In this document: one piece after another, positions 3,702 to 55,850 of the stretch
Position numbering within the stretch: position 1 is the stretch's first letter
Layout: each line of letters begins with the position of its first letter
Assembly: GCA_017416155.1 (NCBI GenBank)
Contig: JAFQDE010000020.1
Location: forward strand, 1-55,878
From: Tyzzerella sp.
GTDB lineage: Bacteria; Bacillota; Clostridia; Lachnospirales; Lachnospiraceae
DNA length: 55,878 nt
Direction: 5' to 3'
Notes under the pieces: generated by a model
The model's input: only the letters and a program-made list of their open reading frames with translations
Databases searched by the model: none
Told to the model about the DNA's origin: nothing
Position numbers and translations under genes: made by a program

Positions 3702-4676
3702 TCAATTCCCCCATCTCACCTCTCCATCTATCTCCAACTTATACATCACTACCTTTTCCCCATCCAAGTCCTCTCGATGCATATCCACGGCTGTCACACA
3801 GCTATTATGATACGTCTTATAATAGTAAATTCCTTTATCCGTGTTGCAGCAGACGCTATAGACCGTATATTCATACGCGCCGCTTTCCACCTGCACACAG
3901 CCCTTATACTGCTTCACGGAATCTAGTATGTGAAAGAACTGGCTGACGCTCTCCATCTCATCTTTTCCATCCACCGAATTCCATTTGATAAATGCAGCAC
4001 GCACGAATCTGGATGGTGAAGACATATCTCCAGGCAAGCCAATGCTTCCCATACCTCTGCTGTATATTTCCAGCGGAAGTTCTTTTGCGAATCGATTGAT
4101 AGGCTCTTTTTTGGTCAGATTCATGTAGTTATTAAGATTGAACAAATGATATGGAAACGGCGGATTATTCGTCAGCACCTTTATCGGATTATCATAGATA
4201 CGAAGCCCGTCATGCATTGGTTCCACCACGATACTATCGAATTTATCGGATATCATGAAATGCAACGGTGTCAAAGGAAGGTCTTTGTGAAAGGAAACTT
4301 TCAAAAGATTTGTCTTCTGCAAAAGTTGTTTTGCCTCCTGCACGTTTTTGCATTGCCCAAGCACCCAAGGAATCAGTTCAAATGGTGTGATATTATACAT
4401 GCCTTCTTTTTCATACTGATATTCTGCATTTCCAGGAAAATTGAGGGACGCCATGCCAAGTCCCTTCTCGTTGACAGCATCGTAATACAACGGATATTCA
4501 GAATGTACGTAAGCAACGCCGATGATTGCATAGTGTTTCTCCATCGTAGGTTCTTTACGAAATACAAATGGAAAGTTTCTCGGCGTAACCGTCACGCTTT
4601 CTTCATAAGAGTACTCGAGATCTAAGTTTCTTCCAAAGTAATGATCCTGTGTTTTATAAGATATTGCTGTACACAT
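3702..4676 (-). CDS. bsh: Bile salt hydrolase (choloylglycine hydrolase)
   Basis: Ntn-hydrolase that cleaves the amide bond of glycine- or taurine-conjugated bile acids, releasing free bile acids. I set the start at ATG 4676, not the longer frame from 4757, because mature enzymes begin with Cys2 after Met and the protein then starts MCTAIS; a GAGG ribosome site precedes it. The product is 324 residues, the normal length. Predicted catalytic and binding residues are visible: Cys2, Arg16, Asp19, Asn79 in LNFPG, Asn170/171 in VLTNNP, and Arg223 in the GLPGDMSSPSRF block. There is no signal peptide, so it is intracellular. It is flanked by terminators on both sides and is probably monocistronic. 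Penicillin V acylases share the fold; these motifs favour the bile salt branch. Confidence 0.93.
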   Translation of the reverse strand: MCTAISYKTQDHYFGRNLDLEYSYEESVTVTPRNFPFVFRKEPTMEKHYAIIGVAYVHSEYPLYYDAVNEKGLGMASLNFPGNAEYQYEKEGMYNITPFELIPWVLGQCKNVQEAKQLLQKTNLLKVSFHKDLPLTPLHFMISDKFDSIVVEPMHDGLRIYDNPIKVLTNNPPFPYHLFNLNNYMNLTKKEPINRFAKELPLEIYSRGMGSIGLPGDMSSPSRFVRAAFIKWNSVDGKDEMESVSQFFHILDSVKQYKGCVQVESGAYEYTVYSVCCNTDKGIYYYKTYHNSCVTAVDMHREDLDGEKVVMYKLEIDGEVRWGN

Positions 4677-4730
4677 AAAAATGCCTCGTTTCTGTTTTTT
4701 CTTAGTATTTCCTACTACAAAATTTTTAAA

Positions 4731-4765
4731 CGAATGACAGCCGTTTCTCACACACATCGAATGAC
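4731..4765 (-). repeat. Direct repeat GTCATTCG x2 upstream of bsh
   Basis: GTCATTCG occurs twice on the minus strand (4731-4738 and 4758-4765), 27 bases apart start to start, about 55 and 82 bases before the bsh start. Two direct half-sites in this position could bind an activator; chance is not excluded. Confidence 0.25.
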
Positions 4766-4776
4766 GTAACTACACA

Positions 4777-4797
4777 AAAAGAGCAGAAAGCTCTTTT
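4777..4797 (-). terminator. Intrinsic terminator after the mgl operon
   Basis: AAAAGAGC (4777-4784) pairs with GCTCTTTT (4790-4797) around AGAAA, giving a hairpin with a TTTTTG tail on the minus strand. It lies 21 bases past the stop of the InlB-repeat gene, so it ends the galactoside operon. Confidence 0.75.
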
Positions 4798-4817
4798 CTG
4801 AACTTCCTGCCCTATGA

Positions 4818-5204
4818 TTATTTCTTTTCCCATCCTGCATATAAAGTGATGTCACTCTGTATTTTATCTTCGTCTTCTTCCCACAACTCTTCACATGCTG
4901 AATCCAAATACCAGCCGGTAAACTCATACCCCTCTCTGGTTGGATCTTCAGGTACTTCCAATAGTTCCCCATACATCTGATTCTGTGAAGCAACATCCGT
5001 TCCTCCTTTAGATTCAAAGGTAATGGTAAAACCTGGATTCCTTAGATCAAGCGCCACCAACAACACGATTACAACAAGACATGTTACTATGATAATATCC
5101 AAGGTTTTTACGGATATTTTCACATGCTTGTATAACCCTCGAAATTCTCTCGGTTGTTTTTCCGGTGTCTGTGATTCTTTTATGTTTTGTTCCATATCAC
5201 TCAT
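4818..5204 (-). CDS. Membrane-anchored single InlB B-repeat protein
   Basis: A 128-residue protein with a charged cytoplasmic N-terminus (1-34), one membrane helix (about 35-53, TLDIIIVTCLVVIVLLVALD) and an extracellular C-terminal part. That part carries one InlB B-repeat/Listeria-Bacteroides repeat: the ITFESKGG opening, EPTREGYEFTGWYLD-type core and TLYAGWEKK ending (about 58-128). Such repeats normally occur in tandem in large surface proteins, so a single anchored copy is unusual. It starts 3 bases after the mglC stop and is followed by a terminator, so it is the last gene of the galactoside transporter operon. The function is unknown; a surface cap or partner of the transporter is speculation. 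Confidence 0.82.
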   Translation of the reverse strand: MSDMEQNIKESQTPEKQPREFRGLYKHVKISVKTLDIIIVTCLVVIVLLVALDLRNPGFTITFESKGGTDVASQNQMYGELLEVPEDPTREGYEFTGWYLDSACEELWEEDEDKIQSDITLYAGWEKK

Positions 5205-5207
5205 GGC

Positions 5208-6290
5208 TTATTTCTTCACTAAGTATTTACGCATATCCAATGCACATGCGCAGAGGATGATTGCTCCTTTGATAATATAAAGTGAAGACGAATCTACACC
5301 TAACATAGTAAGTGCTACGAAAATGATACGTAAGATGAATACACCGAGGATGATACCTGAGATAGAACCTGTACCACCTACAAAGGATACACCACCGATA
5401 ACGCAGGCTGCGATAGCATCACATTCTGCATTCAATCCGGTAGTTGCAGCTACGGAACCACTACGCACACCTTCTACGAAACCAGCATATCCATACATTG
5501 CACCTGCAAGTGTATGTACTAATACAGTTGTCCAGAATACATTTACACCGGATACTTTTGCTGCTTCAGCATTAGAACCTACTGCAAACATATTTTTCCC
5601 GAATGAAGTCTTGTTCCAGATGAACCACATCAGTGCGACAAGAAGCACTGCATATAACACATACTTCGGAACTGCTACGTTTCCTAAACGGAATAATTCT
5701 CCGCCGACAAACTCTTTGTATTCTTTACTCAAACCTGAGAATGGCTGACCATTGTTTCCATTTAAACCAAAGAACCAAAGAATAATACCATATGTAATAA
5801 GTTGTGTAGATAATGTTACAATAAATGGATGTAAGCTAAACTTCGCAACGAAGTAACCATTTACTAAACCAATAATCGCACCTACTAAAACTACACCTAA
5901 CATTACCAATAAGATCCAACCAAGTGTCACTTTTGGAAGCGACTGGAACATTTTATTAGCAAAGTCTGTTTTCTGAAGCATAACTGCCGCAAAAGCAGCT
6001 GTCAAACCGGAAATACGACCAGCTGAAAGGTCAGTACCTGTTAATACGATACATCCGGCAATACCAAGTGCCATTGGTAAGTATGCTGCTACTTGTGTAA
6101 TCAGGTTCGCAAAAGAACCAAGTGTTAAAAAGTTTGGTCTAACGCTTGCTGTATAGATTACAAAAATAGCCATAAGGATATATAAAGCATTGTTCAGAAT
6201 TCCATCTGTCCAAAAACGTTTTTTATCTCTTGCATCTAACAGTTTGTAATCAGCGCTGACTTGTTTTATTTTCTTTAAAGGATTTGTCAT
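5208..6290 (-). CDS. mglC: Galactose/methyl-galactoside ABC transporter permease MglC
   Basis: Inner-membrane permease of a CUT2-type sugar ABC transporter, 360 residues with about ten hydrophobic helices. The order mglB-mglA-mglC, the PNFLTLGSFANLITQVAAYLP-like opening segment, the LTGTDLSAGRISGLTAA motif region and the TGLNAECDAIAACVIGG motif are characteristic of BPD_transp_2 proteins. A slightly longer cytoplasmic N-terminus is usual for the Firmicutes MglC branch. It is expected to form a homodimer with two MglA nucleotide-binding subunits. It lies 14 bases downstream of mglA and 3 bases upstream of the InlB-repeat gene. Confidence 0.93.
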   Translation of the reverse strand: MTNPLKKIKQVSADYKLLDARDKKRFWTDGILNNALYILMAIFVIYTASVRPNFLTLGSFANLITQVAAYLPMALGIAGCIVLTGTDLSAGRISGLTAAFAAVMLQKTDFANKMFQSLPKVTLGWILLVMLGVVLVGAIIGLVNGYFVAKFSLHPFIVTLSTQLITYGIILWFFGLNGNNGQPFSGLSKEYKEFVGGELFRLGNVAVPKYVLYAVLLVALMWFIWNKTSFGKNMFAVGSNAEAAKVSGVNVFWTTVLVHTLAGAMYGYAGFVEGVRSGSVAATTGLNAECDAIAACVIGGVSFVGGTGSISGIILGVFILRIIFVALTMLGVDSSSLYIIKGAIILCACALDMRKYLVKK

Positions 6291-45075: not shown

Positions 45076-45846
45076 TTAAATTTCTTGGAATTCTGTCACA
45101 TACTTTCGGTAATGCAGCGGCAAGTGCTGCCGTTGTCTTTCATAACTTTCTCGCTCTTTTATCGCGACACTATCAAAGAAGCCTTTCCATAGTTTCACGT
45201 ACATAGTCTCTTTCACAGAACAATTCGTTATCAATTTTTCATCTATTTGCTCTCCGTGTACAAGAATCCACTGTTTTCCTGCCTCATGCACCATAACCAT
45301 CTGGTGTGTCCTGTCGTATATCATCCAATTCTCAAGTGGAAACCGATCCGAAAAATGTTCTCCCAAGCAACTCAACATTCGATTCCGCGGTTCTATCTCA
45401 GAGAACAGAATTCCATTTTGTAGCTCTCGAAATCGTACAATCTCTCGATAATAATGTGCTTCATTCGAAACCTTTCGACTAATCTCAAACATTCTTCGAA
45501 CCTTTGGATGCGACAAATGTTCCATGATACGTGTACTATCCGGAATCTTTCTTGCTTCCAGCATCATCCCTAGAATCACATCCGCCTTCTTACTATCGTG
45601 CGAAAGTATCGTATGATAAATATTCCAATATGCATACTCTCCCAAATGGCGCTTAATCAGATTCTCTACTGCAATTGCTTTCTTCTCGTTATCTCGAATC
45701 TCCACATACTCGCAAAAGAGTTCCTGCTCCACACTCCCGCGCAGTGCAATTCCAACCTCATTCTCTCCTAGTTTTGTCTTCCACGCATCATAAATTGCAG
45801 AGAAAATGCCTGTCAAACTGTCTGTACATACATAAACTCGTTTCAT
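45076..45846 (-). CDS. TIGR03915 family putative DNA repair protein
   Basis: A 256-residue protein of the TIGR03915/DUF4130 family, which is nearly always encoded beside the TIGR03916 radical SAM protein, as here (10-base gap). It begins MKRVYVCTDSLTGIFSAIYDAW. Other conserved blocks are HDSKKADVILGMMLEAR, HPKVRRMFEISRKVSNEAHYYREIVRF, and NWMIYDRTHQMVMVHEAG toward the C-terminus. Some relatives are fused to uracil-DNA-glycosylase domains, which is why a DNA repair role is proposed; the activity is not established. It shares the LexA-boxed promoter upstream of its partner. Confidence 0.9.
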   Translation of the reverse strand: MKRVYVCTDSLTGIFSAIYDAWKTKLGENEVGIALRGSVEQELFCEYVEIRDNEKKAIAVENLIKRHLGEYAYWNIYHTILSHDSKKADVILGMMLEARKIPDSTRIMEHLSHPKVRRMFEISRKVSNEAHYYREIVRFRELQNGILFSEIEPRNRMLSCLGEHFSDRFPLENWMIYDRTHQMVMVHEAGKQWILVHGEQIDEKLITNCSVKETMYVKLWKGFFDSVAIKERESYERQRQHLPLHYRKYVTEFQEI

Positions 45847-45856
45847 TTCATTACAC

Positions 45857-47212
45857 CTACCCTAAATATTGCTCAATGGGTGCTTTTTTTCCTTGCTGCG
45901 TGGCAAATTGCTCCTGACGGAAGTTCACATCATCAAATAACGAAATCTGTTTGTAGTTCATCTCCCGCACAGAGATGGGAACTTTATCCCCCACACTTAA
46001 AAGATTACGCAAAATGTAATCCTGTTCTATCTTTGTATGATACATCATTCTCCCTTTACAGGTAATAAAGTATAATGCCCTCTTTAGTACAACACCCATC
46101 TTCTTTAAATCATCAAAATCAAGCACACCCATTCTTCTCGCCTTGACAATTCTAGCTGCCGACTTGTATCCAATGCCTGGCACACGAAGTAACATCTGAT
46201 AATCAGCCAGATTCACTTCCAGCGGAAACAATTCCAAATGCTCCAATGCCCAATTGCACTTCGGATCAATCAGCACATTAAAGTTTGGATTCTTTTCCGA
46301 TAATAACTCCTTTGCCTCAAACCCATAGTATCGAAGCAACCAGTCTGCCTGATACAATCGGTGTTCCCGAAGAAGCGGAGGCCCCGCATCCGTCCTTACG
46401 GGCAAATTCGAATCGTCATTCACATGAATAAATGCAGAGTAAAATACTCTCTTGAGATCAAAATTCTTGTAAAGTGCCTCTGCAACATTCAAAATCTGAA
46501 AGTCATTTTCCGGAGTTGCTCCGATAATCATCTGTGTACTCTGTCCGGCAGGAACAAAACGCGGTGCATTGCGGTACACCATGAGTTCCTGTTTGTTCTC
46601 CTTCATGCTATTTTGCACAAGGCGCATTGGCGTTAAAATTGTTTTTCTGTTCTTATGAGGCGCCAGCTTACGAAGTCCCTCCGCTGTCGGCAATTCCAGA
46701 TTAATACTCATTCTGTCAGCTAAAAATCCCACTCTTTGAATCAGCTCCTGCGATGCACCCGGTATTGCTTTTACGTGAATATAGCCTTGAAAACGGTACT
46801 CTGTACGTAATTTGTAAATCGTCTGATAAATCATCTCCATCGTAAAATCGGGACTCTTCCACACTCCCGAACTCAAGAATAAGCCCTCAATATAATTTCG
46901 ACGATAAAATTCAATTGTTAAATCACATACTTCATCCGGCGTAAACGATGCACGTGGCACATCATTCGACGAACGATTAATACAATACTTACAATCATAT
47001 ATGCATTCGTTTGTAAACAGTATCTTGAGAAGCGAAATACATCTTCCATCCGCCGAAAAACTGTGACAGATTCCGGCTTTCGCACAATTGCCAATACCGG
47101 TACCATCATTTTTTCGGTCGGTTCCGCTGGATGTACAGGCAACATCATACTTAGCTGCGTCAGATAAAATATTCAGTTTTTCTGCAAGACTCATGTTCTG
47201 TGTGATACGCAT
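45857..47212 (-). CDS. TIGR03916 family radical SAM protein, putative DNA modification/repair
   Basis: A 451-residue radical SAM enzyme. The SAM cluster motif is Cys70, Cys74, Cys77 (CIYDCKYC), and extra cysteines at 26, 43, 49 and 58 could hold an auxiliary cluster. The C-terminal half contains a helix-hairpin-helix element MLLRVPGIGYKSAARIV (about 355-375), a DNA-binding motif that supports a DNA substrate. The reaction is unknown. AGGAGGG precedes the ATG. Two LexA-type boxes overlap its promoter (47230-47274), which suggests SOS induction together with the TIGR03915 gene. Confidence 0.91.
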   Translation of the reverse strand: MRITQNMSLAEKLNILSDAAKYDVACTSSGTDRKNDGTGIGNCAKAGICHSFSADGRCISLLKILFTNECIYDCKYCINRSSNDVPRASFTPDEVCDLTIEFYRRNYIEGLFLSSGVWKSPDFTMEMIYQTIYKLRTEYRFQGYIHVKAIPGASQELIQRVGFLADRMSINLELPTAEGLRKLAPHKNRKTILTPMRLVQNSMKENKQELMVYRNAPRFVPAGQSTQMIIGATPENDFQILNVAEALYKNFDLKRVFYSAFIHVNDDSNLPVRTDAGPPLLREHRLYQADWLLRYYGFEAKELLSEKNPNFNVLIDPKCNWALEHLELFPLEVNLADYQMLLRVPGIGYKSAARIVKARRMGVLDFDDLKKMGVVLKRALYFITCKGRMMYHTKIEQDYILRNLLSVGDKVPISVREMNYKQISLFDDVNFRQEQFATQQGKKAPIEQYLG

Positions 47213-47324: not shown

Positions 47325-47465
47325 ACCGTAAAATTTCACTCCAATTCATGCTTGCTACGGTATTATTACGGTGCAAGCATAACTATTACTCTTATGAACC
47401 GTAACGAATACAACAAGAAACAAAAAAATACGGTGCAAGCAACATGACATGCTGCTCACACCGTA
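47325..47465. repeat. Regular array of six ACCGTA/TACGGT hexamers
   Basis: The hexamer starts at 47325 (ACCGTA), 47356 (TACGGT), 47367 (TACGGT), 47398 (ACCGTA), 47429 (TACGGT) and 47460 (ACCGTA). The steps are 31, 11, 31, 31 and 31 bp, so all lie on about the same face of the helix. Three copies carry an adjoining GCAAGCA. The first four and last two sites form three inverted pairs, each 37 bp long. TACGGTGCAAGCA occurs as an exact direct repeat at 47367 and 47429. The region lies between the fumarase stop and the SOS promoter. Possible roles are a regulator-binding array or a set of transcript hairpins. Confidence 0.7.
47429..47465 (-). terminator. Terminator of the fumarate operon
   Basis: TACGGTG pairs with CACCGTA at the ends, with inner GCA/TGC and CATG/ATG pairs, giving a long near-palindrome. 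T runs flank it on both strands. It lies 19 bases past the fumarase beta-subunit stop. It is also the last unit of the hexamer array. Confidence 0.8.
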
Positions 47466-47484: not shown

Positions 47485-48039
47485 TTATTTCTGCGCCAAA
47501 TAAGCTGCTCTTCCGCTTTCGTAAAGGTTATTTCCTTCGCTGTCGATAATAACAACTAACGGCATATCCTCTACATACAATTTACGAAGTGCTTCTGCTC
47601 CCAAATCTTCATAAGCAATAAGCTCAGCTTTTTTGATACATTTTGCAAGGAGTGCACCGGCACCGCCGATTGCTCCGAAGTATACGCCAGAGTATTTCTT
47701 CATAGCGTCTACTACTTCCGGAAGACGGGCTCCTTTACCAATCATACCTCTTGCACCAACGCTCATCATAGTTGGAGCATAAGCGTCCATACGTCCACTT
47801 GTTGTAGGGCCTGCCGAACCGATAACCTGTCCTGGTTTTGCAGGTGTTGGTCCAACATAGTAGATGGTTGCATCCTTTGGATCAATTGGAAGTTCTTCTC
47901 CTCTTGCAAGAGCCTCACACATACGTTTGTGACCTGCGTCACGTGATGTGTAGATTGTTCCTGTTACTAATACAGAATCTCCTGCTTTTAATGTTTTTGC
48001 TAATTCTTCTGTCAATGGTAATGTGATACGTCTTTCCAT
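47485..48039 (-). CDS. Class I fumarate hydratase, beta subunit
   Basis: A 184-residue C-terminal (beta) subunit of the two-subunit, 4Fe-4S fumarase/tartrate dehydratase family. It starts MERRITLPLTEELAKTLKAGD and has the conserved GPTTSGRMDAYAPTM (about 78-92) and GKGARLPEVVDAMKKY blocks, with EDMPLVVIIDSEGNNLYE at the end. With the alpha subunit it interconverts malate and fumarate. Here it probably supplies fumarate from malate for the reductase encoded upstream. Tartrate dehydratase is the alternative, but the operon favours fumarase. It follows the alpha gene by one base. Confidence 0.92.
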   Translation of the reverse strand: MERRITLPLTEELAKTLKAGDSVLVTGTIYTSRDAGHKRMCEALARGEELPIDPKDATIYYVGPTPAKPGQVIGSAGPTTSGRMDAYAPTMMSVGARGMIGKGARLPEVVDAMKKYSGVYFGAIGGAGALLAKCIKKAELIAYEDLGAEALRKLYVEDMPLVVIIDSEGNNLYESGRAAYLAQK

Positions 48040-48040
48040 A

Positions 48041-48883
48041 CTAAATTACCTCCGATTTATGACGAGTTACATGGCAGTTAATGTTGACTGCACATGGCAT
48101 ACCTGCAATGTGTGTTGGAAGTGTCTCAATGTTAAGACCGATTGCTGTAGTCTTTCCACCAAAACCTTGTGGTCCAATACCTAACTCATTCACTTTTTCA
48201 AGCATTTCTTTTTCCAAATCAGCATAGAATGGATCCGGATTCTCTGAATCAATCGGTCTCATTAACGCTTTCTTTGCAAGCAACGCAGATTTATCAAATG
48301 TTCCACCGATACCTACACCGATAACCATAGGTGGGCATGGATTCGGACCTGCTGTTTCTACCACTTCAAGGATGAAATCTTTGATTCCCTGAAGTCCTGC
48401 AGATGGTTTGAACATACGAATCTGGCTCATGTTTTCGCTACCGAAACCTTTTGGTCCAACAGTAACTTTAATCTCTTCGCCCGGTACAATCTCTGTGTAA
48501 AGCATTGCCGGTGTGTTATCACCTGTGTTTCCACGGCGTACAGGATCTCCTACTACGGATTTACGAAGGTATCCGTTTGTGTAACCACGTCTAACACCTT
48601 CATCTACAGCTTCTGCAAGATTGCCACCAACTAAGTGAACATCCTGACCGATTTCAAGAAATACACATGCCATACCTGTATCCTGACAAATCGGCACGTT
48701 TTCTGAATCTGCGATTTCAAAGTTTGTAATAATGTTATCCAATACACCTTTTGCAATATCCCAGTCTTCGCAAGCTCTGCAATCTTTAATTGCACACTTT
48801 ACGTCACTTGGAAGATGTGTATTGGCTTCAATACATAATCTTTCTACAACGTCAGTAATCTGACTTACATTAATTTCACGCAT
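48041..48883 (-). CDS. Class I fumarate hydratase, alpha subunit
   Basis: A 280-residue alpha subunit carrying the 4Fe-4S cluster of oxygen-sensitive fumarase. Likely cluster ligands are Cys in [12 protein letters not shown] (about 63-74), and Cys in the [19 protein letters not shown] region (near 185). [18 protein letters not shown] and [20 protein letters not shown] follow. It is cytoplasmic. It begins 17 bases after the exchanger gene stop with GGAG before the start, and is part of the fumarate reductase operon. Confidence 0.93.
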
Positions 48884-48900
48884 ATTTGTTTCTCTCCTAA

Positions 48901-50136
48901 TTAGCTAAAAAAGATGATTAAGAACTGTGACACCAATACAACTGCGATAAGTGCGATTGGGTATGTAGATGCATAAGCTGCTGCCACGTCCTCTGTTCCT
49001 GCTGTTCCAATCAAGGTTCCAAGAGCCGGTGTACTTGTCATACCACCTGTGATAGAACCAAGGTTGTTTAAAAGGCTTAGTTTGAGTACATATTTTGCAA
49101 ACAGGAATCCGATAATCATTGGAACGATTGTCATGATTACGCCATATACAAAATACATAATATCAAAATATTCTACAAATTCTGCTCCACCTGGGATACC
49201 TGCACCAACAAGGAACAACATAAGACCTAATTCTCTAAATACCTTCAAAGTTCCTTCCTGTGGCATCAGGCTTACTTTTCCGATTCTTCCGAAATGACCG
49301 AATACCAATGCTACAAGAAGACATCCACCTGTTGTTGTAAGTGAAAATGTTGGTCCGAACTTAATCATACCCACGAAGATACCTACGATAGCTGCAAGTG
49401 AAAATGCCGCAAATCCAAATCCATCCAATTCAATTAATTTGCCTACTGTTTTCTTCTCTGTTGCCCCATCATCAATCTGTGTAAGTTTTGCTCTCTCTTC
49501 TTCCATGTTAGCCTTTGTAAGCTTTGGAATCAACTGAACAAATAATACTACACCAACAACTCCGAAGAGGTACGCAATACCATGTCCAACTGCTACTGCA
49601 TTTACATATTCCGGTGCAACAGTATCTTTTGCAGCCGAAAATGCCGGTGTTGATGTAAGTGAACCTGAAAGAAGACCTACAATCATAGCTGTGAATTCAG
49701 CATAATTTGTTTCTCCTAATGCTCTTCCAAGGTAAATACATCCAATTGCAGAGACTCCACCTGCAACAATAATCAATACACCCAAAAGAATGTAAGACTT
49801 GAAATTCTTTTTCATGTTACCGAAGAATTTCGGTCCTGCAATAAATCCTACCGATGTTACAAATAGGATTAAGCCCAAACTTTCAATTACTTTTAATGCA
49901 TTGTCTACGTATGAAACTGCCTCACCAGATTCCCCCGTAACCATAAGCTGTGCCTTAAGTGGTTCAAAGAAGAAGCATCCGAAAAGCAAAGCGATAATAA
50001 ATACACCTGCTGTTCCGAGGTTTACACCTTTAACTGAAACACGTCCAAGTGCATAACCAACCACTGCGATTGCCAACACGCAAAACAGTAAGAAGGTAAC
50101 GCCTTTTACAGCAATTAATCCACCAAAAAGTGACAT
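48901..50136 (-). CDS. AAE-family (AspT/YidE-like) exchanger, probable C4-dicarboxylate or amino-acid antiporter
   Basis: A 411-residue membrane protein with about eleven helices arranged as two similar halves. Each half has the family motif: GLLSGSLTSTPAFSAAKD (about 152-169) and GSITGGMTSTPALGTLIG (about 365-382). This is the aspartate:alanine exchanger superfamily, which also includes a bacterial succinate exporter. The regulatory TrkA_C domains often found between the halves are absent; a short charged cytoplasmic loop (about 212-232) takes their place. Its position between fumarate reductase and fumarase suggests exchange of succinate with malate, fumarate or aspartate. The substrate is inferred from the neighbours. 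Confidence 0.85.
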   Translation of the reverse strand: MSLFGGLIAVKGVTFLLFCVLAIAVVGYALGRVSVKGVNLGTAGVFIIALLFGCFFFEPLKAQLMVTGESGEAVSYVDNALKVIESLGLILFVTSVGFIAGPKFFGNMKKNFKSYILLGVLIIVAGGVSAIGCIYLGRALGETNYAEFTAMIVGLLSGSLTSTPAFSAAKDTVAPEYVNAVAVGHGIAYLFGVVGVVLFVQLIPKLTKANMEEERAKLTQIDDGATEKKTVGKLIELDGFGFAAFSLAAIVGIFVGMIKFGPTFSLTTTGGCLLVALVFGHFGRIGKVSLMPQEGTLKVFRELGLMLFLVGAGIPGGAEFVEYFDIMYFVYGVIMTIVPMIIGFLFAKYVLKLSLLNNLGSITGGMTSTPALGTLIGTAGTEDVAAAYASTYPIALIAVVLVSQFLIIFFS

Positions 50137-50164
50137 TTTATTTTCCTCCTAATTTACAGCATGA

Positions 50165-50196
50165 TTTCCAACATCAGATTGCTCTAATGTTGGAAA
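50165..50196 (-). other. Intercistronic hairpin between fumarate reductase and exchanger genes
   Basis: TTTCCAACAT (50165-50174) and ATGTTGGAAA (50187-50196) are perfect complements around 12 bases. No T run follows on the minus strand, so it is more likely an mRNA-processing or stabilising hairpin than a terminator. Confidence 0.55.
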
Positions 50197-50219
50197 TCCC
50201 ATGCCTTTTTATCTCATTC

Positions 50220-51839
50220 CTAGTTTAATCTTGTTACGCCTTCCGGTCTGTAATCCGGTAATAACTTCGGAGATACAACTGTAGGCTCAATACCTGCATC
50301 TGCAAGTGTCTTAGAGAAATCATCCACATGAGAAAGTGTAAGTTCCTTAAGTTCAACTTCCTTGCACTTAGCACCAGCTTGTTGTCCGGCATTACGTCCG
50401 AATACGATGATGTCTAAGAGTGAGTTACCCATAAGTCTGTTTCTTCCGTGGATTCCTCCGATAGCTTCTCCTGCTACGTAAAGGTTTTCAACCTCTGACA
50501 TACCATTTACACCAACTTTGATACCACCGTTTTGGTAGTGAAGTGTTGGATAGATAACGATTGGAACCTTTCTCATATCGATTCCGCATCTTAAGTACAT
50601 ACGAAGCATACCCGGTAATCTCTTTTCAAGAGTACCTTCTCCATGAATCATATCGATCATTGGAGTATCAAGCCAAATACCATCAGCTACAGGTGTTGGA
50701 ACACCTTTTCCTCTCTCTTTACATTCACGAATGATTCCTGACGCTGCAACGTCACGTGTTTCCAATGGATGCATGAATACTTCACCGTCAACGTTTACGA
50801 ACATTGCGCCCATAGAACGTACTTTTTCTGTTACGAGTGCACCGTAAATCTGTGAAGGGAATGCAACACCTGTTGGGTGATATTGCAAAGTATCTTGGTA
50901 TAACAATGGAGCTCCTGCGCGGTATGCAAGTACAAGACCGTCAGCTGTTGCACCATAGTGGTTTGATGTTGGGAAACCTTGATAGTGCATACGTCCGGCA
51001 CCACCTGTTGCGATAATCACAGTTTTTGCTCTTGCAATCTGGATTTCGTTTGTTTCCATGTTGAGAAGAACAGCACCTGCTGCTTTTCCGTCTGTATCTT
51101 TGATAATTTCGATCGCTGCTGTAAAGTCAACAACCGGAATCTTTCTGTTGTATACTTCATCACGAAGTGTTCTCATAATCTCAGCACCTGAGTAGTCAGC
51201 TGCAGCATGCATTCTCTTACGAGATGTTCCACCACCGTGTGTTGTAACCATTCTTCCGTCTTCGTCTTTATCAAATAATACACCTAATTTATCAAGCCAG
51301 TTGATAGCGATTGGACCGTCGCAAACAAGTTTTTCAACAAGTTCCGGTACGTTCGCAAAATGTCCGCCACCCATTACATCAAGGTAATGTTGAGCCGGCG
51401 AATCGTTTTCTTTGTCAGCAGCCTGGATACCACCTTCTGCCATCATGGTATTAGCATCACCGATACGGAGTTTTGTAACGATCATAACATTAGCACCAGC
51501 TTCGTTTGCTTCGATAGCTGCTGAAGAACCAGCTCCGCCACCACCAATTACTAATACGTCTACATCATAGTCAGGATTAGTTAAATCCAAATCCATTCCT
51601 TTGATTCTACTTTCGCCCTGAAGAATCTCTACTAATTCTTTTGGAGCTTTTTGTCCTGCGTTAGGACCAACTTTGATTTCCTCAAAGCTGTCAAGGTTAT
51701 AGTCTGGATGGAAAGCCTGAAGGAGAGCTGTCTTTTCGTCAGCTGTCATACGTCTTGGTTCGAAACCAATACGTGCCGCTCTACCTGCTTCAACCTTTTT
51801 AATGGATTCCATCATCTCGGCTGTATATGGTAAACTCAT
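50220..51839 (-). CDS. Soluble fumarate reductase flavoprotein subunit (FrdA/TfrA-like)
   Basis: A 539-residue FAD protein from ATG 51839 (GGAGGAG upstream). Residues 1-92 are an N-terminal extension before the FAD-binding strand DVDVLVIGGGGAGSSAA (92-108). The motif that carries covalent FAD in SdhA/FrdA (SHT) reads ANT here (129-131, GDANTMMAEGG), so FAD should be non-covalent, as in TfrA and L-aspartate oxidase. Substrate and catalytic elements are YHPTGVAFP, the acid-catalyst Arg in ETRDVAASGI, His in LHYQNGGI, and AGEAIGGIHGRNRLMG near the C-terminus. It reduces fumarate to succinate with electrons from the next-upstream iron-sulfur subunit. No membrane anchor gene exists in the operon. 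Confidence 0.9.
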   Translation of the reverse strand: MSLPYTAEMMESIKKVEAGRAARIGFEPRRMTADEKTALLQAFHPDYNLDSFEEIKVGPNAGQKAPKELVEILQGESRIKGMDLDLTNPDYDVDVLVIGGGGAGSSAAIEANEAGANVMIVTKLRIGDANTMMAEGGIQAADKENDSPAQHYLDVMGGGHFANVPELVEKLVCDGPIAINWLDKLGVLFDKDEDGRMVTTHGGGTSRKRMHAAADYSGAEIMRTLRDEVYNRKIPVVDFTAAIEIIKDTDGKAAGAVLLNMETNEIQIARAKTVIIATGGAGRMHYQGFPTSNHYGATADGLVLAYRAGAPLLYQDTLQYHPTGVAFPSQIYGALVTEKVRSMGAMFVNVDGEVFMHPLETRDVAASGIIRECKERGKGVPTPVADGIWLDTPMIDMIHGEGTLEKRLPGMLRMYLRCGIDMRKVPIVIYPTLHYQNGGIKVGVNGMSEVENLYVAGEAIGGIHGRNRLMGNSLLDIIVFGRNAGQQAGAKCKEVELKELTLSHVDDFSKTLADAGIEPTVVSPKLLPDYRPEGVTRLN

Positions 51840-51852
51840 GTCTTTCTCCTCC

Positions 51853-52527
51853 TTATTTCTCAATCTCTCTTGTGTTGTAAAGTTCTTTTAATTCTTCGAT
51901 TGGTTTTTGCATGATTGCTTCCATCATTGCTTTGCAATCACCTTTTTCAATCTCTTCCACTCTTGTTGTCAAGTGTTTTGCTTCCGGTCTGATATATTTT
52001 CCTGTTAATCTTCTTGCAAGAAGAGCAACTTGTGGATGTGAGATGCCAGCCGGACAACGTGATGAACATACGCCACACATTACACAGTCAAATGAAAGTT
52101 CTGCACATTTTTCGAACTCTCCCCTCTGTGCATGAGCGATGTACTGCATAACGTTAAGGTCTTGTGTACAGGCCTTTGTACAAGCGTTACATCCTACACA
52201 AGCGTAGATTTCCGGATACAATTGCATCATAACCTGTTGTGTCGGTTTGATTTCTGTAATATCGTAAACCTTTTTTTCTAACGGGAAGAATGGTAATGTT
52301 GCTACACACATATCATTTTCTACTTTTGTAGAACATGCTAAACATCCGTGTAATTCATTTTTCCCTTTGATTCTGTAGATTGTAGCACAAGCTCCGCAGA
52401 AACCGTTTCTACATCCGCAACCGCGAACCAATTGGTATCCGGCATATTCGAAAGCTTCCATAATTGTTAAGTTTGATGGAACTTCATATTTTTTACCGTA
52501 TAAATATACGTTAATCATATCTGCCAT
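51853..52527 (-). CDS. Fumarate reductase iron-sulfur subunit (FrdB/TfrB-N-like)
   Basis: A 224-residue electron-transfer protein. An N-terminal 2Fe-2S ferredoxin domain has cysteines in RGCGCRNGFCGAC (36-47) and GCLAC (61-65). The C-terminal half has two 4Fe-4S motifs, CVGCNACTKAC (about 109-119) and CVMCGVCSSRCP (about 148-159). This matches the B subunit of succinate dehydrogenase/fumarate reductases and the first part of methanogen TfrB, but lacks the HdrB-like CCG domain of TfrB. It hands electrons to the FAD subunit encoded 13 bases downstream, and must receive them from the Flx-like proteins or an unseen partner, because there is no quinone-binding subunit. Confidence 0.91.
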   Translation of the reverse strand: MADMINVYLYGKKYEVPSNLTIMEAFEYAGYQLVRGCGCRNGFCGACATIYRIKGKNELHGCLACSTKVENDMCVATLPFFPLEKKVYDITEIKPTQQVMMQLYPEIYACVGCNACTKACTQDLNVMQYIAHAQRGEFEKCAELSFDCVMCGVCSSRCPAGISHPQVALLARRLTGKYIRPEAKHLTTRVEEIEKGDCKAMMEAIMQKPIEELKELYNTREIEK

Positions 52528-52554
52528 TTTTCTTTTTTCCTTTCTCTTGTAATC

Positions 52555-53409
52555 CTAGTACTCAGGTGGCAATTCGCCGATTTCGTCGTAACGGAATACC
52601 GGGCCGTCTTTACAAACATATTTAGAACCGATGTTACAACGTCCACATTTACCAACGCCACACTTCATACGAAGTTCAAATGTTGTATAGATTTGCTCAT
52701 CTGTGAAGCCTAATTCTTTTAAACCAGCCAATACGAACTTAATCATAATCGGAGGACCGCAGATAAGAGCAACTTTGTTAGTGTCAAGATTTAATTCTTT
52801 TACATAAGCAGGTACGAATCCTACATGTCCGTCCCATCCTTCTTGTGGACGGTCGATTGTAAGGTGTACGTTGATGCCTTCTGTCTTCATCCAAACTTCC
52901 TGGATTTCTTTTAACTGAACCAAATCGTCTGCTGAACGAGAACCGTAAACGATATCTACTGTTCCGTAGTTTTCGCGGTTATCAATTACATAGTTGATAA
53001 CAGAACGAAGTGGTGCAAGACCGATACCACCGGCGATGAATAAAAGGTTCTTACCTTTCAATTCTGTTTCCACCGGAAAATGATTACCGTATGGTCCACG
53101 AACTGTGATCTCTGAACCTACTTCTAAGCTGTGAAGATAATCAGTAAGTTCACCACATTTCTTAATACTAAATTCTTGGTATTCTTTGTTTGTTGGTGAA
53201 GATGTAATAGAGAACATTGCTTCACTCACACCAGGAGCACAAACCATTGCGCACTGTCCTGGCATATGTTCAAATAATTTTCCGCCCTCCGGAGCATTTA
53301 CACGGAATGTTTTTACATCCGGTGTCTCCTGACGGATATCTGTAATGATACCTACCTTTGGAATCAATGTGTCCAAAGTGTATCCATCATGACAATGACA
53401 TTCGCACAT
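52555..53409 (-). CDS. FAD/NAD(P)-binding oxidoreductase with C-terminal 2Fe-2S site (FlxA/HydG/AsrB-like)
   Basis: A 284-residue ferredoxin-NADP reductase-type protein. The N-terminus is Cys/His rich (MCECHCHDG). The FAD domain (about 15-110) includes PGQCAMVCAPG and AMFSITSSP. The NAD(P) domain begins LLFIAGGIGLAPLRSVI (about 126-142) and has ALICGPPIMIKFVLAGL. A C-terminal 2Fe-2S site reads CGVGKCGRCNIGSKYVC. Relatives are the NAD(P)H-oxidising subunits of sulfhydrogenases, anaerobic sulfite reductase AsrB and FlxA. It probably takes electrons from NADH or NADPH into the complex. It overlaps the next-upstream gene by one base. Confidence 0.9.
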   Translation of the reverse strand: MCECHCHDGYTLDTLIPKVGIITDIRQETPDVKTFRVNAPEGGKLFEHMPGQCAMVCAPGVSEAMFSITSSPTNKEYQEFSIKKCGELTDYLHSLEVGSEITVRGPYGNHFPVETELKGKNLLFIAGGIGLAPLRSVINYVIDNRENYGTVDIVYGSRSADDLVQLKEIQEVWMKTEGINVHLTIDRPQEGWDGHVGFVPAYVKELNLDTNKVALICGPPIMIKFVLAGLKELGFTDEQIYTTFELRMKCGVGKCGRCNIGSKYVCKDGPVFRYDEIGELPPEY

Positions 53410-54440
53410 TAGTTTTCACCTCCCTGATTTTCAAAAGCCTTAATTACTTTGACGATATTAAGTGCTGATGGACATTTTTCAATACAACGTCCGCAACCTA
53501 CACATGAGTACATTCCGTTGTTGTTTGCAGGGAAGTACACAAGTTTGTGCATGAATCTCTGACGGAATCTCTGCATCTGGCTTGTACGGTTGTTACCGTG
53601 AGCCATCATTGTGAAGTCAGAATACATACATGAATCCCAGCAACGATAACGTTTTACGCCATGTCCTGTATCGTAATCCTTGATATCATAGCACTGGCAG
53701 GTTGGGCACACGAATGTACATGTTCCACAAGCCAAGCATGGTTTGTAAAGTTCTTCCCATACAGGAGAGTTGAATTTCTCTAAGAGAACATCTCCATTCC
53801 ATCCTTCTAAAGAAATATTAGAGTATGGAAGTTTCTCTACGATTGCACGGATTGCAGTTTTCTCTTCTTCTACTTTTGCTTCATCGGCATCTGTAAGAAG
53901 ACCTGCTACTTTCGCTGTCAAAGCCTCACCCTTTTCAGTCAAGGCCTTCCAATACATTTCTCCGTCAATCATCCATGTAGCTACGTCAGCTACAGGCTCT
54001 GCACAGTCTACACCGAAGACTTTACAGAAACATGTCTCTTCCGGCTCATGACAAGCCATAACAACGATGGTTCCGTGTGCGCGTCTTGCTGCGTAGAATG
54101 TATCAACCGGGTCAACTAAAAATACTTTGTCAAGTACCTCAAGACCTTTTACGTCGCAGGCTTTCATACCGAATACTACGAAATCCTGGTCTTTTAAAGC
54201 TTCCGGCTCGATTTTTAATTTTTTATCTTCTTTTTTAACAGTATATAAGTTCTCGCTTTGTGGGAAGAATGCATCTTTTGGTGATTTTACAGTCTTAAGA
54301 GTGTCTAAATCAACATTTGCGCCTTCTGTCCATGCTGCGAAGTTCACCTGTCCGTTATTGTTAACAGGTACATATAATTCTTGCTCTCCGGCAATTGCTT
54401 GGAATAATGCCGAAAGATTTTCTTTTGCTATCTTATACAT
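53409..54440 (-). CDS. 4Fe-4S dicluster electron-transfer protein (FlxB/HydB/AsrA-like)
   Basis: A 343-residue protein from ATG 54440, which has AAAGGGG eight bases upstream; a GTG three bases earlier is possible. The N-terminal part has FVVFGMKACDVKGLEVLDKV and MACHEPEETCFCKVFG, typical of the AsrA/HydB group. Two 4Fe-4S motifs follow in the C-terminal half: CLACGTCTFVCPTCQCYD and CVGCGRCIEKCPSALNIV. It likely relays electrons between the FAD/NAD subunit and the other iron-sulfur proteins. The ribosome site overlaps the stop of the previous gene, and its own stop overlaps the next gene, so expression is tightly coupled. Confidence 0.88.
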   Translation of the reverse strand: MYKIAKENLSALFQAIAGEQELYVPVNNNGQVNFAAWTEGANVDLDTLKTVKSPKDAFFPQSENLYTVKKEDKKLKIEPEALKDQDFVVFGMKACDVKGLEVLDKVFLVDPVDTFYAARRAHGTIVVMACHEPEETCFCKVFGVDCAEPVADVATWMIDGEMYWKALTEKGEALTAKVAGLLTDADEAKVEEEKTAIRAIVEKLPYSNISLEGWNGDVLLEKFNSPVWEELYKPCLACGTCTFVCPTCQCYDIKDYDTGHGVKRYRCWDSCMYSDFTMMAHGNNRTSQMQRFRQRFMHKLVYFPANNNGMYSCVGCGRCIEKCPSALNIVKVIKAFENQGGEN

Positions 54441-54444
54441 CACA

Positions 54445-55419
54445 TTATCCCCTTTCTGTTACGATGCTTGGTTCCACATCATCAAATGTATAGTTTGTAA
54501 GTGGTCCTCTTGAATCTGTGTCAGCACCTGCCTGATATTCACCATAGAACTCATTGATGTCCTTGATGTATTTGCGGTTAAATAAGTGGAGACGGATGCC
54601 CTGTGGACATACTCTGCTACACTCACCGCAGTCTGTACATCTTCCTGCAACGTGAAATGCACGGATTACATGGAACATCTTTTCTTCAAATGAATCTACA
54701 TTTGCTTTCTGTGCACTGTCAAACTTTGTGCTGTCAAATACACATTTGCGGCAACTACAAGCCGGACATACGTTACGGCACGCATTACAACGGATACATT
54801 TGCTTAATTCTTCTTGGAAGAATGCAAATTTTTCTGCCGGGCTCATTGCTTCAATCATTTCAACCTCTGCAAAACGCTCTGCATCTTTTGTATCTCTTGA
54901 TTCACCGATGATTTCATCATAAATCATGTGATCCTTGCCTTTACATACGTGACATCTTTCTAACATTGCATCGCCGTATGCGCAAGTCTTTTCACCATAG
55001 ATGGTTTGGAATGTCAGTGTATCGCATGCATCAGTCATCTCTGCGCCAGACACGCTCTCGATACCTTTAATTCCTAATCTTTTCGCTTTTTCAATGTCCA
55101 ATTTACCTTTACATCCAACACCAACGATGTAAGCTTTCTCTCTGTCTACGCGGTGTTCTTTGATTAATTGGTTAAAGCTGTATGTATCACATGGCTTCAG
55201 GCAAACCATTGTCTTGCCTTCTAACTTAGAAGCTTCAATCATGTACTTGCTAAGGTTAGCGCCACAGAATCCGTTATAAACGAAATCTTTTAATTCTTCT
55301 ACTGTATTGAAGTAAGCTGGTTCTGGATTGTATGGAAGATCGCCCGCTTTCCAGCCAAGAACACGTGCTACTTCGCCACTTTCAAGAAGCTCTTTTGCAC
55401 GATTCACTAATTCTTGCAT
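54445..55419 (-). CDS. 4Fe-4S dicluster protein (FlxC-like)
   Basis: A 324-residue soluble protein. The N-terminal part has KTMVCLKPCDTYSFNQLI and VGVGCKGKLDIEKAKRLG, resembling the F420-hydrogenase/formate dehydrogenase beta family seen in FlxC. A cysteine pair CHVCKGKDH follows at about 152. Two 4Fe-4S sites come next: CIRCNACRNVCPACSC (about 207-222) and CTDCGECSRVCPQG (about 262-275). It is probably an electron relay between the MvhD-like subunit and the FAD/NAD branch. It overlaps the mvhD-like gene by 13 bases. Confidence 0.86.
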   Translation of the reverse strand: MQELVNRAKELLESGEVARVLGWKAGDLPYNPEPAYFNTVEELKDFVYNGFCGANLSKYMIEASKLEGKTMVCLKPCDTYSFNQLIKEHRVDREKAYIVGVGCKGKLDIEKAKRLGIKGIESVSGAEMTDACDTLTFQTIYGEKTCAYGDAMLERCHVCKGKDHMIYDEIIGESRDTKDAERFAEVEMIEAMSPAEKFAFFQEELSKCIRCNACRNVCPACSCRKCVFDSTKFDSAQKANVDSFEEKMFHVIRAFHVAGRCTDCGECSRVCPQGIRLHLFNRKYIKDINEFYGEYQAGADTDSRGPLTNYTFDDVEPSIVTERG

Positions 55420-55850
55420 CTCAAATCCCCCAATCTTACGTTTTTACCAAGTGAGTGAATCTTTTCTACAAACTCATTCATAGTCTGAGAGAATTTCACA
55501 CCTTCGGCTGCTGATACCCATTCAACACGTGTACGTCCGTTTTCTACGCCGATGTAATCTAACATAGAGAACAATAATGTCATACGTCTTCTTGCATAGA
55601 AGTTACCACTTGTGTAGTGGCAGTCTCCCGGGTGACATCCACACATGATAACGCCGTCAGCACCTTTTTCGAATGCTCTTAAGATGAACATTGGGTTTAC
55701 ACGACATGAACATGGTACACGGATGATTTTAACATCTGCAGGGTATGCCAAACGGCTGCTTCCTGCAAGGTCAGCGCCTGCATAACTACACCAGTTACAG
55801 CAGAACGCTACAATTTTCGGTCTGAATTCGTTGTTGTTTTCTATCGACAT
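55407..55850 (-). CDS. MvhD/FlxD-like hydrogenase iron-sulfur subunit
   Basis: A 147-residue 2Fe-2S protein. The cysteine set is typical of MvhD: CCNWC (17-21), VPCSC, and CGCHPGDCHY. MvhD-type proteins bridge an electron donor module to HdrA, the flavin-bifurcating subunit of heterodisulfide-reductase-type complexes. GGAGGT lies 10 bases before the ATG. Just before it, near the right edge, an in-frame TAG (55867-55869) preceded by three sense codons could be the end of an upstream gene coupled to this one; an HdrA-like gene would be expected there but is outside the window. Confidence 0.9.
   Translation of the reverse strand: MSIENNNEFRPKIVAFCCNWCSYAGADLAGSSRLAYPADVKIIRVPCSCRVNPMFILRAFEKGADGVIMCGCHPGDCHYTSGNFYARRRMTLLFSMLDYIGVENGRTRVEWVSAAEGVKFSQTMNEFVEKIHSLGKNVRLGDLRCKN

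Follow-up and report, generated by a model that had tools for sequence, protein, structure and literature searches.

Fumarate reduction is usually regarded as a membrane process that is linked to quinones. How, then, might fumarate be reduced where the fumarate reductase genes belong to a long operon of soluble redox proteins? This question is raised by the 55,878-nucleotide stretch analysed here (the window), which is an entire contig (C38) of a Tyzzerella sp. genome of 2.07 Mb in 56 contigs, 84% complete. Nine open reading frames run as a single series on its minus strand from 47485 to 55850, with the common direction and the ends exactly as reported in a preliminary description made from the letters alone. 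We judge it likely that the products of an Hdr-Flx-Frd operon reduce fumarate with NAD(P)H, and that this reaction is probably coupled to ferredoxin (bifurcating). In this scheme, the operon would represent the reductive branch from oxaloacetate through malate and fumarate to succinate, arranged around one cytoplasmic redox machine. The earlier interpretation is supported overall, and it is only the homology of HdrA that suggests bifurcation. The fumarate reductase pair had also been called anchorless, and no membrane anchor gene was seen among the genes of the operon, anchors elsewhere in the genome not having been searched.

The operon across two contigs

When MvhD-family genes were sought in the own genome, a second, truncated gene start came to light at the end of contig C50. 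The final 122 bases of C50 are identical to the first 122 bases of the reverse complement of the window. Just before this overlap lie an Ldh/Mdh-type dehydrogenase, hdrB, hdrC and hdrA; the hdrA stop is inside the overlap, and hdrA overlaps mvhD. Since the contig of a related metagenome-assembled genome (L040, FrdA 98% identical) is collinear with C50 and C38 through the junction, at 84% and 87% DNA identity, the join very probably represents the real gene order. Read across both contigs, this order is mdh-hdrB-hdrC-hdrA-mvhD-flxC-flxB-flxA-frdB-frdA-aae-fumA-fumB. The HdrA-like subunit, expected outside the window by the preliminary description, was therefore found directly upstream together with HdrB and HdrC, and by their sequence matches all seven HdrABC-FlxABCD subunits are present in the operon. 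Neighbouring genes in the nine-gene run of the window overlap by up to 13 bases or are separated by up to 27, with the exception of 83 bases between frdA and the exchanger gene.

As seen from the domain searches, the Flx genes are adjacent and all lie on the minus strand. The MvhD-like FlxD (55407..55850; FlpD family, PF02662 at 181.8 bits), a linker to HdrA, has a start that overlaps the hdrA end on C50. FlxC (54445..55419) is a 4Fe-4S dicluster protein in which Pfam finds Fer4-type domains only. By phmmer, two stretches of it match 9t1s_M, the beta subunit of an F420 formate dehydrogenase in an Hdr complex, with a whole-protein E of 2.8e-21; the N-terminal match is weak. FlxB (53409..54443) is a sulfhydrogenase beta-like iron-sulfur subunit (phmmer to 9nez_B, E 1.3e-44 over 3-332), and FlxA (52555..53409) is an FAD/NAD(P) oxidoreductase with a DHODB-type Fe-S domain (PF00175, PF00970, PF10418), the expected site of electron entry. 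The pairing of each Flx name with its domain is our assumption. The families named in the preliminary description stand, with the correction that four of them, the MvhD-like protein, both iron-sulfur proteins and the oxidoreductase, jointly constitute a full FlxABCD.

On the Hdr side, HdrA matches the solved HdrA 5odc_A with 683 bits over residues 3-660 and is full length, with FAD and Fe-S domains. HdrB matches solved HdrB along its whole length, and its ten CCG cysteines, making two cluster sites, are kept in 56/56 alignment rows. Two 4Fe-4S motifs of HdrC are kept in 55/55 loci.

A class-wide sample of 291 genomes contained relatives of FrdA in 40 (E 1e-60), and a phylum-wide sample of 398 contained them in 39 (E 1e-120), the own genome included in both counts. 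No relative was detected in the nine other genomes of the own family or the three of the own order within the class sample. A scan of named genomes gave at least 559 loci encoding a FrdA relative, and the best 80 of these were studied. The order and strand of hdrBCA-mvhD-flxCBA-frdBA, which had been expected to be conserved, are kept in 80/80 loci as far as the contigs reach. This nine-gene core is whole, in one order and on one strand, in 55 of them, while contig ends truncate the remaining 25; the same 55/80 holds for the order of the four Flx genes. By title, described species among the 80 are Blautia glucerasea (L053, with mdh-hdrBCA-mvhD-flxCBA-frdBA-fumAB) and Mordavella massiliensis (L070), and most of the other loci come from metagenome-assembled genomes, many of animal gut samples. 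The Hdr-Flx-Frd operon is widespread in gut Clostridia, and this breadth is new here. Gene content, gene order, the conserved cofactor and catalytic residues and their conservation among relatives are direct observations.

Several individual loci deviate from the general picture. In L063, hdrA extends over two open reading frames (about 4024-6010), the sole such case among the 55 complete-core loci and either a sequencing error or a broken gene. L105, titled Planctomycetaceae, has all of the Hdr-Flx-Frd core in divergent form, its fumAB lying on the opposite strand, and represents a transfer or a binning error. Additionally, the single-contig genome G379 carries two FrdA copies about 90 kb apart.

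Electron flow, substrate and competing explanations

From the homologies we infer a complex of these subunits, the route and direction of the electrons, the coupling to ferredoxin and the use of NADH or NADPH. Electrons would pass from NAD(P)H through FlxA, FlxB, FlxC and MvhD to the FAD of HdrA. HdrA would most likely bifurcate them, one branch leading to ferredoxin and the other through HdrC, HdrB, FrdB and FrdA to fumarate, with FrdAB as the high-potential acceptor in place of the heterodisulfide. Mdh and fumarase would supply the fumarate, the exchanger would move dicarboxylates, and reduced ferredoxin could feed Rnf, which is encoded in the own genome. The standard free energy of the coupled reaction, computed from standard potentials, is about -33 to -49 kJ/mol.

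The Hdr-Flx-Frd set is known as a proposal, the system having been proposed earlier for one heat-loving Clostridium. The same set is described as the succinate operon of Pseudoclostridium thermosuccinogenes, with ferredoxin coupling proposed, by Koendjbiharie in 2020 (PMC7282089), who cites a 2019 preprint (Koendjbiharie and van Kranenburg) proposing bifurcation. The preliminary remark that no well-described system with exactly this set was known is corrected by this description. The operon rose about 4-fold under CO2 limitation, and in an older study H2 nearly abolished succinate formation, a result that in the authors' view accords with ferredoxin coupling (PMC7282089). Within the open-access literature searched, the set was described in PMC7282089 only and not in the available text of PMC9044749, PMC5861303, PMC4759654, PMC12773636 or PMC12578642.

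The alternative that survives best, although still unlikely, is a linear NAD(P)H:fumarate reductase, in which Flx-Hdr wires NAD(P)H to FrdAB and no ferredoxin is reduced. Electron transfer from NADH to fumarate is downhill without any coupling, and work on the gut acetogen Blautia luti (2026) models a plain NADH-dependent fumarate reductase, which is also the basis of its computed ATP yields (PMC12773636). In that study, fumarate reductase was measured with reduced viologen and frdAB was highly transcribed; the available main text contains neither 'hdr' nor 'heterodisulfide'. These yields need revision if B. luti carries the operon as B. glucerasea does. However, a linear enzyme would have no need of HdrA, HdrB, HdrC and MvhD, and HdrA is found wherever the DNA of a locus extends to its position, although as two pieces in L063. 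The solved relatives of HdrA carry annotations as heterodisulfide reductase subunits, and several are additionally labelled ferredoxin reductases.

FrdB (51853..52527, minus strand, 224 aa) has a [2Fe-2S] site and two CxxCxxCxxxC sites. Cys 39, 44, 47 and 65 are kept in 78/79 rows, the remaining row being a gap, and the sites at 110-120 and 148-158 in 79/79. The family search gave no CCG domain match in FrdB; the CCG part sits on the separate HdrB. Because FrdB, HdrC and HdrB, along with FlxC, each match one piece of the methanogen TfrB model (NF004898, 488 positions), HdrB is a plausible electron donor to FrdB. In control searches, HdrB occurred in 17/70 FrdA-negative genomes at 28-41% identity and in none of the 28 FrdA-negative genomes from the own family, order and class. 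In the flanks, up to 1.5 kb long, of 30 control HdrB loci, no match to frd, flx or mvhD was detected at E 1e-10. A preference of HdrB for the SdhE model was tried as a marker of Frd linkage and rejected, as it was found in 4/4 Frd-operon HdrB proteins (6-13 bits) but also in 2/7 control HdrB proteins.

The CCG cluster is the disulfide-reducing site of heterodisulfide reductase, and both CCG sites are kept in HdrB. A two-step thiol route could be imagined on this ground, with HdrB reducing some disulfide and FrdAB oxidising the dithiol, as methanogen TfrAB does with CoM-SH and CoB-SH. Yet FrdB is without a CCG match for thiol oxidation and a direct relay via HdrBC is simpler, and the thiol route is considered very unlikely.

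The identity of the substrate was approached through FrdA (50220..51839, minus strand). The open reading frame list begins it with TTG at 51863; since conservation starts at the ATG at 51839, this is probably the true start, giving 539 aa. Seven FrdA matches with one in-frame stop were noticed (L017-L020, L031, L034 and one in G174). Because the FrdA query began at the upstream TTG, these stops probably fall within the short stretch of codons that precedes the true start. Residues H321, T337, E338, R362, H434 and R468 are kept in 81/81 rows and align with H242, T254, E255, R286, H354 and R399 of SdhA, whose numbering and catalytic roles we take as given. By this alignment the dicarboxylate active site is kept, in agreement with the fumarate reductase pair of the preliminary description. 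Asn130 stands at the position of the SdhA flavinylation histidine in 81/81 rows, a count biased towards Asn by one of the two scan patterns, which included this residue; non-covalent FAD is expected. PF00890 (FAD_binding_2) is present and PF02910 gave no match. The AF2 model has a predicted local distance difference test (pLDDT) score of 78 and a predicted template modelling (pTM) score of 0.82, and its best Foldseek match is E. coli FrdA (1kf6_A). Among family models the best score belongs to TfrA, at 330.2 bits and under its cut-off of 718; the general SdhA/FrdA model gave 276 bits, far under its cut-off, and the L-aspartate oxidase NadB models gave 272.7 (cut-off 639) and 271.1 (452.75), under both.

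The fumarase genes provide further evidence on the substrate. Class I fumarase alpha (48041..48883, NF004885 at 418.7 bits) and beta (47485..48039, Fe-S hydro-lyase NF005310 at 297.5 bits and TIGR00723) lie on the minus strand, all matches being over cut-off. The exchanger (48901..50136, minus strand, 411 aa) is of the AspT/YidE type of the AAE family and over cut-off for PF06826 and TIGR01625, so that both labels of the preliminary description hold. In many relatives, a class II fumarase (fumC) is instead situated before hdrB, and after mdh if mdh is present; the three fumC proteins tested were all over the class II cut-off. Of the best 80 loci, 26 have fumC, 35 have fumAB and 0 have both. 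In the 44 loci with long flanks on both sides, the numbers are 23 with fumC, 16 with same-strand fumAB and 5 with neither (the fumAB of L105 being on the opposite strand). It can be seen that fumAB is swapped for the non-homologous fumC across related operons, which is a new observation. This replacement, with never both types in one locus, points to fumarate as the substrate of FrdA.

PF00890 flavoproteins are diverse in substrate, and the L-aspartate oxidase models score near the general SdhA/FrdA model (273 vs 276 bits, all far under cut-off). It is nevertheless highly improbable that FrdA is an L-aspartate oxidase or that its substrate is a different unsaturated acid: the fumarase is exchanged while its context is unchanged, the top family model is the fumarate reductase TfrA, though under cut-off, and the nearest structure is E. 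coli FrdA.

The dehydrogenase is present in 34/44 full-flank loci. Of two malate models, one (NF004863) is matched over its cut-off and the other (TIGR01763) below it, and an Arg is found in 44/44 rows at the position that presumably selects malate over lactate. The dehydrogenase is probably malate-type, and its specificity would be for malate. The exchanger is present in 32/44 full-flank loci and, where matched, starts less than 400 bases after frdA in 52/56 loci. It is under the cut-offs of the named antiporter models; its context suggests transport of dicarboxylate or succinate.

For genome context, 68 of 78 FrdA-positive genomes were used, the ten omitted genomes of the class sample being mostly less complete or more contaminated. 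The rnfC gene is over cut-off in 45/68, the own genome included. For quinone synthesis, menD is over cut-off in 1/68 and the MqnA/D family in 13/68, with neither over cut-off in 54/68, again including the own genome. TIGR01812 (SdhA/FrdA) is over cut-off in 8/68 genomes and not in 60/68; at E 1e-100 or better it is found in 27/68, the own genome not among these. As most of these genomes lack both menD and MqnA/D over cut-off and TIGR01812 over cut-off, the operon is a likely succinate route in many of the 68. An ATP-type phosphoenolpyruvate (PEP) carboxykinase occurs in 27/68, own genome included. A methylmalonyl-CoA mutase match occurs in 19/68 genomes, where propionate-succinate interconversion is possible, and flavin-based bifurcation is reversible in principle. 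Reverse operation, with succinate oxidised by confurcation with reduced ferredoxin, is nevertheless the least probable of all explanations, as the own genome has PEP carboxykinase and no mutase match and the characterised relative makes succinate (PMC7282089).

Several points weigh against bifurcating fumarate reduction. The open-access literature searched, in the text available, shows no biochemical test of ferredoxin coupling, no biochemistry for ferredoxin reduction and none for a physical Hdr-Frd complex. In P. thermosuccinogenes, the rise of the operon was not significant for all subunits, and the sulfide result of the older study was opposite and called confusing by the authors (PMC7282089). 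The AF2 model of FrdB is poor (pTM 0.47), and its fold search gave weak matches (best E 1.1e-4, TM score 0.30). HdrB slightly prefers the fumarate reductase SdhE model over HdrB, which is not diagnostic. Among the 44 full-flank loci, 5 are without same-strand fumarase, 10 without the dehydrogenase and 12 without the exchanger. With the dehydrogenase, the L-lactate dehydrogenase model TIGR01771 also gives a score over its cut-off, and the dehydrogenases of L044 and L077 are just 36-37% identical. As rnfC over cut-off is missing in 23/68 genomes, the fate of ferredoxin varies. Finally, absences in the source genome are weakened by its 84% completeness.

Probable mosaic history of frdBA, and the flanks of the operon

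The two parts of the operon differ in their relationships, as seen when frdBA (50220-52527) is compared with the Hdr-Flx part (52555-55850 and the end of C50, locus L003). The Hdr-Flx part is 77-88% identical to fumAB-type operons (90% to L035, 95% to L040 and 63% to the long-branch L105) and 64-68% identical to fumC-type operons. FrdBA is 85% identical to L038, of the fumC type, 72-76% to the other fumC-type loci and 72-75% to fumAB-type operons other than L035 and L040. The per-gene identity shifts between flxA and frdB and again between frdA and the exchanger. In trees of 55 operons, the window, L035 and L040 group with L038 for FrdBA and fall inside the fumAB group for Hdr-Flx, each with support of 100 in the Shimodaira-Hasegawa-like approximate likelihood ratio test (SH-aLRT). 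When these four are constrained to one group, the fit to the Hdr-Flx data worsens by 392 log units (approximately unbiased (AU) test, p 4e-6). A corresponding constraint on the fumAB group, L085 included and L105 excluded, worsens the fit to the FrdBA data by 74 (AU p 1.6e-5); the groups were defined after the identities were known and the trees were quick, and the AU p-values are indicative. These identity breaks and conflicting trees imply that FrdBA was most likely exchanged as one two-gene cassette, which is new here and is as expected of a separable acceptor module.

About 94 residues ahead of the FAD domain of FrdA (51558..51839, minus strand) match no Pfam family. A profile of this N-terminal domain gave 25 matches in 24/249 genomes, all at FrdA genes of the same family that the phylum-wide search had also detected. 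The domain is specific to this FrdA family among the 249 genomes searched, which is another new observation, and is a candidate docking element. A more far-reaching picture can be drawn tentatively, with a chance slightly below even: a soluble, modular, bifurcating HdrABC-FlxABCD-FrdAB supercomplex in mostly quinone-free gut Clostridia, on which FrdBA, as a plug-in cassette traded among Hdr-Flx backbones, would dock at HdrB/HdrC via this domain, with a gain of ferredoxin per succinate. If this were true, ferredoxin, and ion-gradient ATP via Rnf, would be obtained from every succinate made.

At the end of the operon, a terminator-like hairpin of 17 pairs with a T run (47429..47465, minus strand) begins 19 bases past the final stop codon, that of fumB; this pattern occurs at 1 site in 951 bases against 0.6 expected in shuffles, a count that is not significant alone. 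Before mdh, 5 promoter consensus matches on both strands against 4.6 expected gave no evidence of a promoter. Downstream of the operon, at 45076-47212, are a putative DNA modification/repair radical SAM (S-adenosylmethionine) protein (TIGR03916 at 707.9 bits) and, after it, a putative DNA repair protein (TIGR03915 at 237.2 bits), both over cut-off. Upstream of mdh, at 7491-9348 of C50, is an adjacent gene pair that we take to resemble IbrA/IbrB (PAPS-reductase-like, where PAPS is 3'-phosphoadenosine 5'-phosphosulfate, and ParB-like), with no NCBIfam match at E 1e-20.

Comparison with known systems

The FlxABCD-HdrABC of Desulfovibrio vulgaris, reportedly described by Ramos in 2015, shares by family all seven subunits, the NAD(P)H entry and the HdrA module. 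Its proposed acceptor is DsrC (PMC4759654), whereas the operon described here includes, besides Hdr-Flx, the genes of a fumarate reductase. Quinol:fumarate reductase and succinate dehydrogenase share the active site and fold of FrdA, but the FrdA here has no flavinylation histidine, no PF02910 and an extra N-terminal domain. Methanogen TfrAB is soluble and likewise combines FrdA-like, FrdB-like and CCG parts. However, methanogen TfrB is one chain, while the CCG part here is a separate subunit beside HdrA and Flx, and FrdA is far below the TfrA cut-off.

The P. thermosuccinogenes operon is similar in that the available gene list of PMC7282089 shows a single run with a fumarase, seven Flx-Hdr locus tags (a number taken from their range), a pair of Frd genes and a putative transporter for succinate. 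In that list the fumarase stands at the Flx-Hdr end, whereas here class I fumAB follows the exchanger. Additionally, the operon here is led by a malate-type dehydrogenase, and its frdBA has a history different from that of its own Hdr-Flx part, the two systems being compared by the gene list of PMC7282089.

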